Source: Marilutibacter aestuarii
GTDB lineage: Bacteria > Pseudomonadota > Gammaproteobacteria > Xanthomonadales > Xanthomonadaceae
Assembly (NCBI RefSeq): GCF_006546775.1
Contig: NZ_VICE01000006.1
Coordinates: 1 to 64,000 of the forward strand
Length of the DNA stretch: 64,000 nt
Direction of reading: 5' to 3'
Position numbers and translations under genes: made by a program. Under the pieces are notes generated by a model. It had not been told where the DNA came from and ran no database searches. It saw only the letters and a program-made list of their open reading frames with translations. Below, in pieces: positions 2,733 to 7,242 of the stretch. Each line of letters opens with the position of its first letter. Position 1 is the first letter of the stretch.

Positions 2733-3506
2733 ATGGGGACATGGTTCGTCGCGCAGGATGCCTGGGTCGTGATGGCCGTCGGCGTGGCCTGGTTCAGCCT
2801 GCTCTACCTCGGGACCGGCGCCCTCTCCATCCTGCTCGCGGCCGTAATGCAACGCTTCGGCTACGGCCGCCGCCTCGACCCGCGACCGGTGACCGGCGCC
2901 CAGTTACGGCGCGAACTGGGCGCGTCCGGCAGCTCGATCCTGGTGTTCGGCCTCGGCCTGGTCGTGCCCTGGGGCATGCTGCGCCTGGGCTGGGCCGGGC
3001 TCGCGGTGGCGCCCAGCGGCTGGCAGGTGGCGCTGGAGATCGTGCTGCTGTTCTTCTGGAACGAACTGCACTTCTACGCCTGCCACCGGCTGCTGCACAC
3101 GCGCGCGTTGCGCCGCTTCCACGTCATGCACCACCGCTCGCACGTGGCGACGCCCTGGTCGACCTATGCCTTCCACCCGGTGGAAGCGGCGATGCTCGGC
3201 AGCGTGCCCTTGCTGCCGATGCTGGTCCACGATTTCAGTTTCGCCGCATTGATGACGCTGCCGGTGTTGAGCATCGTGCTCAACAACCTCGGCCACGCGA
3301 ACTACGAAGCCAGCGCGCGCGCACCGGCACGTGGCTGGCGCGCCGCCAGCCGGCGCCACCATCTCCATCACGCGTGCTACCACGGCAACTACGGCTTCCT
3401 GCTCGAGGTCTTCGACCGAATGTTCGGCAGCGTCCTGCCGCTCGACGCCGCCGACGCCGTGATCGCGCGCCAGCGGGCAAGCGACACCGGGGCACGTCGC
3501 CCATGA
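2733..3506 (+). CDS. Sterol desaturase / fatty acid hydroxylase family membrane protein
   Basis: A 257-residue integral membrane protein with the three histidine clusters of the fatty-acid hydroxylase superfamily: HFYACHRLLH, HVMHHRSH and HHLHHACYHGNYG. These normally bind a diiron centre that hydroxylates or desaturates lipid carbons. Several hydrophobic segments precede and separate the clusters. The ATG at 2733 follows CAGGAG by 9 nt; the frame is open further upstream into dxs, but that part is shadow. The stop overlaps the start of the next gene (ATGA), so translation is probably coupled. It is the first gene of a four-gene cassette containing a desaturase and a ketosynthase, so the substrate is probably an acyl chain or a polyketide-like lipid rather than a sterol (inference). 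Confidence 0.88.
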   Translation: MGTWFVAQDAWVVMAVGVAWFSLLYLGTGALSILLAAVMQRFGYGRRLDPRPVTGAQLRRELGASGSSILVFGLGLVVPWGMLRLGWAGLAVAPSGWQVALEIVLLFFWNELHFYACHRLLHTRALRRFHVMHHRSHVATPWSTYAFHPVEAAMLGSVPLLPMLVHDFSFAALMTLPVLSIVLNNLGHANYEASARAPARGWRAASRRHHLHHACYHGNYGFLLEVFDRMFGSVLPLDAADAVIARQRASDTGARRP

Positions 3507-4399
3507 GCCTGCAACCGATCGGGCCACTACGCGACCGGCACGACCTGCGCAGCCTGGCCTATCTCGCGATGCAGGCGCTGGCGATGGCCTGGCAATGGCG
3601 CCACGGCTTCCATCCGGTGGTCTTCGCCGCCAGCCTGTTCCTGGCGGTCGGCATCACCGTCATCCACCACAACCACGCGCACCTGCCGATGTGGACGCGG
3701 CGCGGACTCAATCGCGCGACCGACCTTGCGATCACCCTGCTGCAGGGCCACCCGACCTGCGCAATGCACCCCGCGCACCGGCTCAACCACCATCGCCACC
3801 ACCATGGCCCGCGCGACGTCGCCCGCACCTGGCGGTTCGGCGACCACAACCATCTGGGCGGCTGGATGCTGCACCCGTTCCAGGCACTGACGCCGGTCTA
3901 CCCCCTGGTGCTGGCATGGCTGCGCCGCCTGCACGGACGCCATCCCGGCGCGTGGCGCTGGTATGCCCTGCAATACCTTGCCTGGATCGGCAGTTGGGCC
4001 GCCCTGCTCCTGCTCGACCCGGGCAAGGCCTTGCTGCTGGTGATCGTCCCGCAACTGTTCGGCCTGCACTGGCTGCTCGCGGCCAACTACCTGCAGCACG
4101 CGCACGCCGACGATCGCGAACCGCTGGCCCGCGCGCGCAACTTCGAGGGCGTGCTGAACCCGCTGCTGTTCAACATCGGCCTGCACACCGCCCACCACGC
4201 TCATGCGCGCGCGCACTGGTCGCAGCTCCCCGGACTGCACCGCCAGTACCGCGCGCGCATCGATCCGCGGCTGCTCGAGCCCTCGTTCCCCGCCTACGTC
4301 GCCCGCGTGTTCCTGCTGGCGCCATTCATGCCGCGCTATCGTTCGCGCTCGTTGCGCCTCGCCACGACGACGGCGCCCCGACCCCACAAGGATTGTTGA
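3503..4399 (+). CDS. Fatty acid desaturase family protein
   Basis: A 298-residue membrane protein with the desaturase histidine boxes: HHNHAH near residue 55, HRLNHHRHHHG near residue 95, and HTAHHAH about 80 residues before the C-terminus. These are the diiron ligands of membrane acyl desaturases and related hydroxylases. Hydrophobic segments flank the boxes. It starts within the stop of the upstream hydroxylase gene (ATGA), and its own TGA overlaps the ATG of the ketosynthase gene (TGATG), so three consecutive genes are translationally coupled. The family is clear; the acyl substrate and position of oxidation cannot be told from sequence. Two diiron membrane oxidases in a row before a third, soluble diiron-type domain is unusual. 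Confidence 0.88.
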   Translation: MSLQPIGPLRDRHDLRSLAYLAMQALAMAWQWRHGFHPVVFAASLFLAVGITVIHHNHAHLPMWTRRGLNRATDLAITLLQGHPTCAMHPAHRLNHHRHHHGPRDVARTWRFGDHNHLGGWMLHPFQALTPVYPLVLAWLRRLHGRHPGAWRWYALQYLAWIGSWAALLLLDPGKALLLVIVPQLFGLHWLLAANYLQHAHADDREPLARARNFEGVLNPLLFNIGLHTAHHAHARAHWSQLPGLHRQYRARIDPRLLEPSFPAYVARVFLLAPFMPRYRSRSLRLATTTAPRPHKDC

Positions 4400-6291
4400 T
4401 GCCCACCGTCTTCCATCGCACCTGGCTCCAGGGCACCGGACGCTTCCTCCCCGGCGCTGCCGTCGACAACACGGCCATGGATGCCTACATCGCGCCGCTC
4501 AACCGGATTTCCGGGCGCATCAAGCGCCGCATCCTCGCCGAGAACGGCATCCAGTCGCGCCATTACGCGATCGACGCGGACGGGCGCACGGTGCATTCCT
4601 GCGCGGGGATGGCGGTCCGCGCCATCCACGACTGCCTGGCCGACGCCGGCAGTCGCCTGCCCGACATCGGCCTGCTGGCCTGCGGCAGCTCGGGCGGCGA
4701 TGCGCTGATGCCCGGCTTCGCCAGCATGGTCCACGGCGAACTGGCTGCCCCGCCGATGCAGGTGCACTCCAGCCATGGCATCTGCGCCTCGGGCGTGGCG
4801 GCCTGGGAAAGCGCGGCGGCGGCGGTCGAACTGGGCGCGCACGAACGCGCACTGGTCGCCGCGGCGGAAATGCCTTCGCGGCTGTTCAAGCGTTCGCGTT
4901 ACGCCGGGCGCGACTACGACGCGGACTTCGATGCCCACTTCCTTCGCTGGATGCTGTCCGACGGTGCCGGCGCCCTGCAGCTGACCTCGACCGCGCCGCG
5001 CCATGACGGCGTCCGCCTGCGCCTGCGCTTCATGCACCAGCGCTCCTTCGCCGGCGACTATCCGGTGTGCATGCAACTGGGGCTCACCCCCGACCGCGCG
5101 CGCTCGCACCTGGACTATGCCGCGTGGCGCGACGCCGAGGCCGACGGCGCGCTGTTCCTGCGCCAGGACATCCGCCTGCTGCCGCACCTGTTCGACGTCG
5201 GCGTTCACGAGTACGCCTCGCTCTGCCACGCGGGCTGGATCCAGCCCGATCGCGTCGACCACTTCCTGTGCCACTACTCGTCCGAACGCTTCGCCCCGGT
5301 GGTGGAGGAACTGATGGCCAAGGCCGGCCTGGCCATCCCGCGCGAGCGCTGGTACAGCAACCTCACGCAACGCGGCAACACGGGCGCGGCCTCGATCTTC
5401 GTCATGCTCGACGAGTTCCGCCGCACCCACGCGCTGACGCCGGGCGAGCGCATCCTGTGCTTCATCCCGGAGTCCGGCCGATTCACCGTTGCCTTCGTGA
5501 TGCTCGAGGTCGAGGCTGCCGACGAGGCACCGGCCGAACGCAGTCCCCCGTCCAGCACCTCGCGTCCGGCCCCGGACGGGATCGCGCCGCCGCACGACCC
5601 CGCCGACGCCCCGGCGGCCCTGCGCCACCTGTTGGGCGAACTCGCCACGATCTGGCACGACTACCGCTCGCGCGCGTGGCGCACGCCGATGATCCGCAAG
5701 CTGCGCGAACGCCGTTTCGGCATCGAGGACTACCGGCAGTGGATGCAGCACTGGATCCCGCAGGTCCGCGAGGGCAGCAAGTGGATGCGCGAGGGCGCGG
5801 CTTCGGTGCGGGCACCGTACGACGCGCTGGCCGGCCTGATCGAGACCCACGCCGGCGACGAGCAGGACGACTACATGATCCTGTTCGAGGACTACCGCAA
5901 GGCGGGCGGCGAGGTGGCCGAACTCGACGCGCTGCGCCGCAACCCCGGCGGCGAGGCCCTCAACAGCTACCTGCATGCACTCGCCGCGACGCCCAACCCG
6001 CTGGGCCTGCTCGGCGCGATCTACATCATCGAGGGCACCGGGCAACGCATCATCCCCGCCCTGCTGCCGCTGATGAAGGCCAGCCTCGCGCTACCGGCCG
6101 ACGCCTTCCGCTTCCTCGAGTACCACGGCGAGAACGATGCGCACCACCTGGCGCGCTGGCTGCGCGCGGTCGAGATCGTGTTCGAGCACGACGCCGACGG
6201 CCGCGGCGCGCGTGCGATCATCGACACCGCCCGCCGCACCGCCGAGCTGTACCTGATGCAGTTCGACCACCTCGCCATCGACCCGGAGTAG
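4399..6291 (+). CDS. DarB/StlD-like ketosynthase (KAS III fold) fused to a haem-oxygenase-like diiron (HDO) domain
   Basis: A 630-residue two-domain protein. Residues 1 to about 375 form a KAS III-type thiolase fold with an intact triad: Cys129 (HGICASG), His292 (FLCHYSS) and Asn327 (RGNTGAAS). The segment NGIQSRHYAIDADGRTVHS near residue 55 resembles the DarB/StlD ketosynthases that form dialkylresorcinols and stilbenes. A Pro/Ser-rich linker (about 380-410) leads to a helical domain to residue 630 that resembles TenA/haem oxygenase-like HDO enzymes. It has His420 (IWHDYR), Glu545 (YIIEGTG) and H576-x3-D580-x2-H583 (YHGENDAHHL), a plausible metal site. HDO enzymes cleave or oxidise fatty acyl or amino acid substrates (UndA, BesC). 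The fusion suggests that the chain made by the ketosynthase is then oxidised (inference). It is coupled to the upstream desaturase. Confidence 0.85.
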   Translation: MPTVFHRTWLQGTGRFLPGAAVDNTAMDAYIAPLNRISGRIKRRILAENGIQSRHYAIDADGRTVHSCAGMAVRAIHDCLADAGSRLPDIGLLACGSSGGDALMPGFASMVHGELAAPPMQVHSSHGICASGVAAWESAAAAVELGAHERALVAAAEMPSRLFKRSRYAGRDYDADFDAHFLRWMLSDGAGALQLTSTAPRHDGVRLRLRFMHQRSFAGDYPVCMQLGLTPDRARSHLDYAAWRDAEADGALFLRQDIRLLPHLFDVGVHEYASLCHAGWIQPDRVDHFLCHYSSERFAPVVEELMAKAGLAIPRERWYSNLTQRGNTGAASIFVMLDEFRRTHALTPGERILCFIPESGRFTVAFVMLEVEAADEAPAERSPPSSTSRPAPDGIAPPHDPADAPAALRHLLGELATIWHDYRSRAWRTPMIRKLRERRFGIEDYRQWMQHWIPQVREGSKWMREGAASVRAPYDALAGLIETHAGDEQDDYMILFEDYRKAGGEVAELDALRRNPGGEALNSYLHALAATPNPLGLLGAIYIIEGTGQRIIPALLPLMKASLALPADAFRFLEYHGENDAHHLARWLRAVEIVFEHDADGRGARAIIDTARRTAELYLMQFDHLAIDPE

Positions 6292-6300
6292 CGCACGCGC

Positions 6301-7242
6301 ATGAAGCACGCCCCCGACTTCCTCGACCTGGCACACGACCCGCGCGACCCCAACCCCTGGCTGGCGATGTACCTGGACCGCAGCACGCCGATCGACGAGG
6401 CGGTCAAGCGTGCCTGGCTGGCCGACTCGAGTTCGGCCTCGCGCCAGTACATCCTGCCCTTCGTGCGCCCGCTGGCGCGCACCCTGATCGTGCTGATCCA
6501 GGTGCTGAAGGTGTTCACCCCGCGCAAGCTGGCGTTCTCGCGCTTCCTGCACCGGCTGCTGGCCTGGGGCATGGAGAACTTCATCCGCCCGGAGGCCAAC
6601 TGGCTGATCCTGCGCCACTTCCACCTGGGCTCGCAGGTCCTGGGCTTCATCGCGAAGAACGCGCCGGTCGAGGTACCGACGAACCCGCTCACGCCGGCGC
6701 GGATCAGCGACGTGCGCGAGGAGATGTTCCTCGTCCACGACCTGAACCTGTACAACTTCATCATCCGGCTCAACCAGGGCCTGCGCGACGCCGGCCAGCA
6801 CCTGGGCCGCGTCGACGACCCCGACCTGTCGATGATCGAACAGCCGGCGCTGTCGCTGGAAGACATGCCGCGACGGCGGCGCAACTTCCTCGACCTGCAG
6901 AGCTCGATCGAGCTGTTCACCCCGATCTACCAGCTGCTGCTCACCGACAGCGACTTCTGGCGCGCGACCAACTCGCTGCAACTGGACGAGACGATCGGCC
7001 TGTACGCGGCGACCCTGCTGGATGCCCGCGACCACCTGGTGCTGCTCAACAATCGCCACCCGCTGGTCCCCATGTCGACCCTGCGCGCAGGCTTCCGCCT
7101 GACCCTGCACGGTCTGTCCACCGAGATGCTGCACGGCCTGCTGGTGCAGTTGCGCGCGCAGCGCGAGGCCCTCGCTCAGTCGGCCGTGGCGGCCGCCTCC
7201 GCCGCCTCCACCGGCTCCGCCGACACCTCCACGGCCTCCTGA
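6301..7242 (+). CDS. Conserved hypothetical protein, last gene of the ketosynthase cassette
   Basis: 313 residues with no signal peptide and no catalytic motif I can name. It starts 9 bp after the ketosynthase-HDO stop. A hydrophobic stretch near residues 57-75 (LARTLIVLIQVLKVF) could dip into a membrane; the rest is mixed helical. There is a conserved-looking core (EEMFLVHDLNLYNFIIRLN and LFTPIYQLLLTDSDFW) and an Ala/Ser/Thr-rich tail. I vaguely recall a domain of unknown function beside such ketosynthases in xanthomonads but cannot name it with certainty. The last 67 bases overlap the 3' end of the convergent TraB gene, so one tail may be longer than needed. Its job is probably tied to the lipid product of the cassette. 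Confidence 0.75.
   Translation: MKHAPDFLDLAHDPRDPNPWLAMYLDRSTPIDEAVKRAWLADSSSASRQYILPFVRPLARTLIVLIQVLKVFTPRKLAFSRFLHRLLAWGMENFIRPEANWLILRHFHLGSQVLGFIAKNAPVEVPTNPLTPARISDVREEMFLVHDLNLYNFIIRLNQGLRDAGQHLGRVDDPDLSMIEQPALSLEDMPRRRRNFLDLQSSIELFTPIYQLLLTDSDFWRATNSLQLDETIGLYAATLLDARDHLVLLNNRHPLVPMSTLRAGFRLTLHGLSTEMLHGLLVQLRAQREALAQSAVAAASAASTGSADTSTAS

Follow-up and report, generated by a model that had tools for sequence, protein, structure and literature searches.

The locus of interest encodes a protein that unites a condensing enzyme and a diiron-type oxidase in a single polypeptide. Its gene belongs to a run of four on the + strand that spans positions 2733-7242 of the window (the whole stretch of Marilutibacter aestuarii DNA that was analyzed, 64,000 nucleotides long). 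According to open reading frames and Pfam matches, the four genes encode a hydroxylase, a desaturase, a fusion of a ketosynthase (KS) with a haem-oxygenase-like diiron oxidase (HDO) domain, and a DUF6999 protein:

2733..3506, + strand: g1, membrane fatty-acid hydroxylase (PF04116), 257 aa; FA_hydroxylase 4.5e-22; accessory
3503..4399, + strand: g2, membrane fatty-acid desaturase (PF00487), 298 aa; FA_desaturase 3.9e-24; accessory
4399..6291, + strand: g3, KS-HDO fusion, 630 aa; ACP_syn_III_C and Haem_oxygenas_2
4399..5517, + strand: KS domain of g3, StlD/DarB-like, residues 1-373; triad C129/H292/N327
5599..6291, + strand: HDO domain of g3, residues 401-630; H484, E488, D491, E545, H576, D580, H583
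6301..7242, + strand: g4, DUF6999 (PF22523), 313 aa, helical; Pfam 3.6e-126

Domain calls and coordinates agree on the four-gene cassette of the original prediction, including its hydroxylase and desaturase. The genes are as tightly coupled as it had described: g1 and g2 overlap in ATGA, the stop codon of g2 and the ATG of g3 form TGATG, and a gap of 9 nt separates g3 from g4. The gene upstream of the cassette is presumably dxs. The genome contains one full-length copy of the KS-HDO fusion, plus one weak FabH-like match, and a single copy of DUF6999. With Pfam, none of the four genes matches an ACP family, and the cassette shows no sigma-70-like promoter; one terminator-like site lies within g1, and shuffled sequence gives as many. 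The hydroxylase has no sequence relative in the PDB, and the desaturase has chance-level matches there only (best 0.06). In the accessible literature, whose coverage mostly leaves out subscription journals, neither the cassette nor the lipid pathway that it suggests was found described.

Searching 84,980 species genomes for DUF6999 relatives gave 408 stretches that encode them, a patchy but wide distribution. The best 80 of these 408, which lean towards close relatives and include Lysobacter, Bordetella, Achromobacter and Variovorax, were fetched. All four genes are present in 64 of the best 80 loci. The cassette is not a chance grouping, because gene order and strand are kept in 64/64 complete loci. 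The overlap between the fusion and DUF6999 is 4 nt in 36 and 17 nt in 19 of the 63 complete loci in which it was measurable. Homologues of g1 and g2 occur in 74/80 and 66/80 of the best loci, respectively. Eight of the incomplete loci have no desaturase and two no hydroxylase; three consist of KS, HDO and DUF6999 only (L039 at a contig end, L053, and L112 with an interrupted KS), and one, L076, which lies at a contig end, retains HDO and DUF6999 alone. Two Variovorax loci (L060, L061) show only hydroxylase and DUF6999, with desaturase and KS-HDO on another contig, so that all four genes are present. In 82 of the 85 loci examined, KS and HDO form a single open frame, one locus (L084/L128) being counted twice. 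In Verticiella (L112, 8002-9122) the KS part is split over two reading frames, either as a decaying gene or by sequencing error.

In even draws of genomes, which do not lean towards close relatives, DUF6999 occurs in 9 of 398 genomes of the phylum (the window's own included) and in 6 of 289 from another class, one genome being common to both sets. In 14/14 genomes (13 besides that of the window) KS and HDO adjoin DUF6999, fused in seven and as separate genes in seven, and all three stay adjacent also where they are separate. Both membrane enzymes are nearby in six of the 14, the desaturase only in one, and neither in seven, one of which is represented by a contig of only 5,803 bases (L152). 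Among 250 genomes of the order, 6/6 full fusions have DUF6999 beside them. An unfused example is found in Pseudoalteromonas sp. THAF3, with a 185-aa protein, KS, an iron-containing redox enzyme and DUF6999; the redox enzyme stays under the Pfam HDO threshold, but is 63% identical to the enzyme of L134, which reaches the HDO family. The conserved core of the cassette is KS, HDO and DUF6999, and the hydroxylase and the desaturase are accessory. The linkage of four genes that had been proposed is thus seen in most of the best loci, but in seven of the 14 DUF6999 genomes neither membrane enzyme is found nearby.

The KS half of g3 matches ACP_syn_III_C (5.3e-9) and, below the cut-off of 24 bits, ACP_syn_III (0.0018, 18.6 bits). 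Its nearest solved structure by sequence is StlD (2.6e-60), and residues 7-372 of the predicted structure superimpose on StlD 5gk2 with Z 33.5 and rmsd 4.0 over 335 aligned residues. Cys129, His292 and Asn327, which the original prediction had named, align with the Cys, His and Asn of StlD and are invariant in 93/93 family rows (91 distinct; L039, at a contig end, and L112, with its interrupted frame, are left out of this count, and L032-L034, which duplicate the contigs of L038, L042 and L056, out of all row counts). The likeness to DarB/StlD that had been claimed stands for the broad subfamily and the triad. It does not extend to the NCBIfam StlD/DarB model (NF005293), against which the KS scores 322.9 bits with a curated cut-off of 450, and therefore its chemistry may differ from that of StlD/DarB. 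In 249 phylum-wide genomes the same model gives five matches of 561-601 bits, five of 302-344 bits and a next match of 66.3 bits. The 302-344-bit enzymes (G000, G330, G415, G441, G467) all belong to cassette genomes, and the genes over the cut-off are the five DarB-type genes used for comparison.

A KS tree of 34 rows (including 18 fused, five DarB, six unfused, L134 and four FabH; L176 and L179 were dropped) places the fused KS in one clade (support 100/100) and the five DarB in a separate clade (96/92). The six unfused KS from the other class, presumably Alphaproteobacteria, form a clade of their own (100/99), and the unfused KS of L134 adjoins the fused clade (97/94). The cassette KS lie beside DarB and far from FabH, although support for a joint clade of fused and unfused cassette KS against DarB is only 81/70. 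Judged by its place outside the DarB clade and its score under the subfamily cut-off, the cassette KS is not a DarB. The fusion most likely arose once, from separate genes, because the fused KS are monophyletic in this tree with unfused KS around them. A more distant KS, 39% identical to that of the window, is encoded on a Streptomyces plasmid (L193, 9703-19279), one of three such plasmids, where it adjoins genes for an ACP, a FAD monooxygenase, FabF and a P450 and belongs to another cluster.

In the dar cluster of Azoarcus, DarB is the DAR-cyclase and DarA the DAR-aromatase, and Variovorax paradoxus is reported to have DAR clusters (accessible part of PMC3949708). A gene of about 306 aa adjoins the five DarB genes used here; no Pfam or NCBIfam model names it, and it was read as DarA from its position. 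This presumed DarA matches 5/5 DarB genomes (one being the query's own) against 1/14 cassette genomes (G621), one of the 14 (G751) being only 74% complete, and has no match in the window's genome. The KS and HDO stretches of G621 are identical to those of Variovorax sp. Root473 (L084). Conversely, no HDO or DUF6999 homologue was found in 16 kb around any of the five DarB genes.

The C-terminal half of g3 belongs by sequence to the HDO family, as had been proposed. It matches Haem_oxygenas_2 (PF14518) with 1.9e-10 and 41.3 bits, over the cut-off of 28.9, a match that it shares with the HDOs UndA, SznF, BesC, MboA and AetD, and a PDB search with a 27-member profile detects 3dde (5.2e-12). The domain is helical in the model, with pLDDT block means of 74-91 except in the last block; the fold list of the whole KS-HDO model is filled by the KS and has no HDO entry. 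In its main text, the 2026 HDO review (PMC13108848) contains none of the words 'ketosynthase', 'fused' and 'fusion'.

Glu545, His576, Asp580 and His583, which had been predicted as retained, are invariant in 95/95 HDO rows (93 distinct), and so are His484, Glu488 and Asp491, which had been missed; these rows are related rather than independent, and the 26 that were compared with the window's span 32-84% identity (L060 and L061, with no KS-HDO there, and L076, with no KS and at a contig end, are left out of the KS and HDO counts). The remaining residue of the predicted set, His420, is His in 85 of the 95 rows and otherwise Gln, Ile or Thr (three rows each) or Phe (one row). As a ligand on helix 1 it was ruled out together with Asp421, since both positions vary among family rows. 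Ordinary HDOs share Glu545 and H576-x3-D580-x2-H583, but carry Tyr/Glu/His at positions 484/488/491 (15/15). In MboA the canonical ligands are Glu86, His89, Glu143, His172, Asp176 and His181, with Tyr82 positioned as a base (accessible part of PMC13185094), and about 85% of the HDO groups analyzed in the available part of PMC11363339 have E-H-X-H-D-H or E-H-X-H-E-H. Aligned via the ordinary HDO L009, Glu86, His89 and Tyr82 of MboA correspond to positions 488, 491 and 484. By this alignment the metal set of the cassette HDO is not canonical: H-x3-E-x2-D replaces the ExxH of the first pair, in a domain that, unlike ordinary HDOs, is fused to a KS. We infer that His484 replaces the lost His ligand, and the altered set may point to a different reaction or a different metal.

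The last gene, described originally as without known function, is a full-length member of DUF6999 (420.2 bits, cut-off 27), a family with no recorded function. The name was not found in the accessible literature, subscription journals lying largely outside its coverage, and no DUF6999 relative was confirmed in viral contigs. A structure model from 33 sequences (pLDDT 86.6, pTM 0.85) has no PDB match under 0.001 in Foldseek (best E 0.17), and the best VIA match has Z 4.3 and rmsd 5.4 over 152 aligned residues; a known fold was rejected accordingly, and the protein has no sequence relative in the PDB. Four HDO chains appear in the Foldseek list at E 1.9-2.7 and TM ~0.1, and nothing was drawn from them. 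Columns invariant in 33/33 sequences, down to 26% identity, include H106, H146, D147, D198, D229, H270 and E275, which would suit a metal site. The model bacterium Caulobacter vibrioides, used as a control genome, has a DUF6999 match.

Beyond the observed domains, linkage, conservation, fused clade and scarcity of DarA, we infer every reaction and product of the cassette. The preferred reading, with a probability of roughly 40%, is an O2-dependent pathway of lipid formation by fatty-acid condensation, with KS, HDO and DUF6999 as its core and the HDO in the place of DarA. Like DarB, the KS would probably condense two acyl thioesters drawn from primary fatty-acid metabolism, yielding a beta-keto acid or an acid of the cyclohexanedione type. 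On the same chain, the HDO of the fusion would use a dimetal site and O2 to remove hydrogen and/or CO2 from this product, standing in for the DarA aromatase and leading to a resorcinol-like or related oxidized lipid. DUF6999 would act at the HDO step or directly after it, and in the Lysobacter/Burkholderiales form the acyl chains would be tailored by the hydroxylase and desaturase. With the presumed DarA so rare in cassette genomes and constant in DarB genomes, the simplest reading would be an HDO that takes over the oxidation from DarA. To our knowledge, no characterized HDO aromatizes a ring, which counts against the proposal. The cassette provides an HDO whose metal set is altered, and a family without a function, DUF6999, gains a testable setting. 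In a stronger form, which is doubtful, one polypeptide would both build and oxidatively aromatize or decarboxylate a fatty-acid-derived ring by means of an HDO with a moved His, helped by DUF6999 as a metal enzyme of new fold, and the cassette would represent an O2-dependent, DarA-free route to an undescribed lipid class across Pseudomonadota.

An unlikely alternative is a hydrocarbon route, in which an OleA- or FabH-like KS makes a beta-keto acid that the HDO decarboxylates oxidatively to an alkene or enone lipid. UndA, an HDO converting fatty acids to 1-alkenes (accessible part of PMC13108848), offers a precedent, and OleA chains come after StlD in the fold list of the KS (Z 30-31 vs 33). 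However, by sequence and in the tree the KS is nearest to StlD/DarB, not FabH, the ExxH pair is absent from the cassette HDO, and DUF6999 is left unexplained. Also quite unlikely is a modification of the acyl chain by the HDO (desaturation or acetylenation), before or after condensation, which would give a signal or antibiotic based on a polyunsaturated or acetylenic fatty acid. The seven of 14 DUF6999 genomes with neither membrane enzyme nearby, the short L152 contig among them, weigh against it, as does the fusion, which favors an HDO acting on the KS product. It would, however, suit the presence of a membrane desaturase and hydroxylase in the same gene run, and the HDO MboA is an acetylenase, though one acting on arginine (accessible part of PMC13185094); among PDB entries it is weakly related to an ordinary HDO (8.1e-5). 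Ordinary lipid remodelling, with a KS that does no more than start or extend fatty acids for membrane lipids and an HDO that has no chemistry of its own and serves as metal or oxygen sensor or structural domain, is improbable in view of the seven invariant potential metal residues in the HDO and the kinship of the KS to DarB/StlD rather than FabH, although phospholipid-type neighbors occur in single lineages (PLD-like in 27 Variovorax loci, Aas-like in one genome).

Further neighbors were rejected as members of the preferred condensation pathway: in rough gene calls, no other gene cluster occurs in more than 27 of the best 80 loci. The PLD-like protein of about 530 aa is encoded in 27 of these 80 loci, all from Variovorax (e.g., L069, 5586-7160), and its gene lies directly upstream of the cassette genes in L069, L060 and L061. 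In L133 (5697-9098), from another class, an Aas-like gene (MFS-acyltransferase-AMP-binding) follows DUF6999 after about 20 nt on the same strand. The gene before the KS in the Alteromonadales-type loci L134 (12441-13007) and L192 (7436-7993) codes for a small membrane-like protein rich in His, with 64% identity between the two loci and no Pfam match, which is perhaps a membrane metal enzyme in place of the hydroxylase or desaturase.
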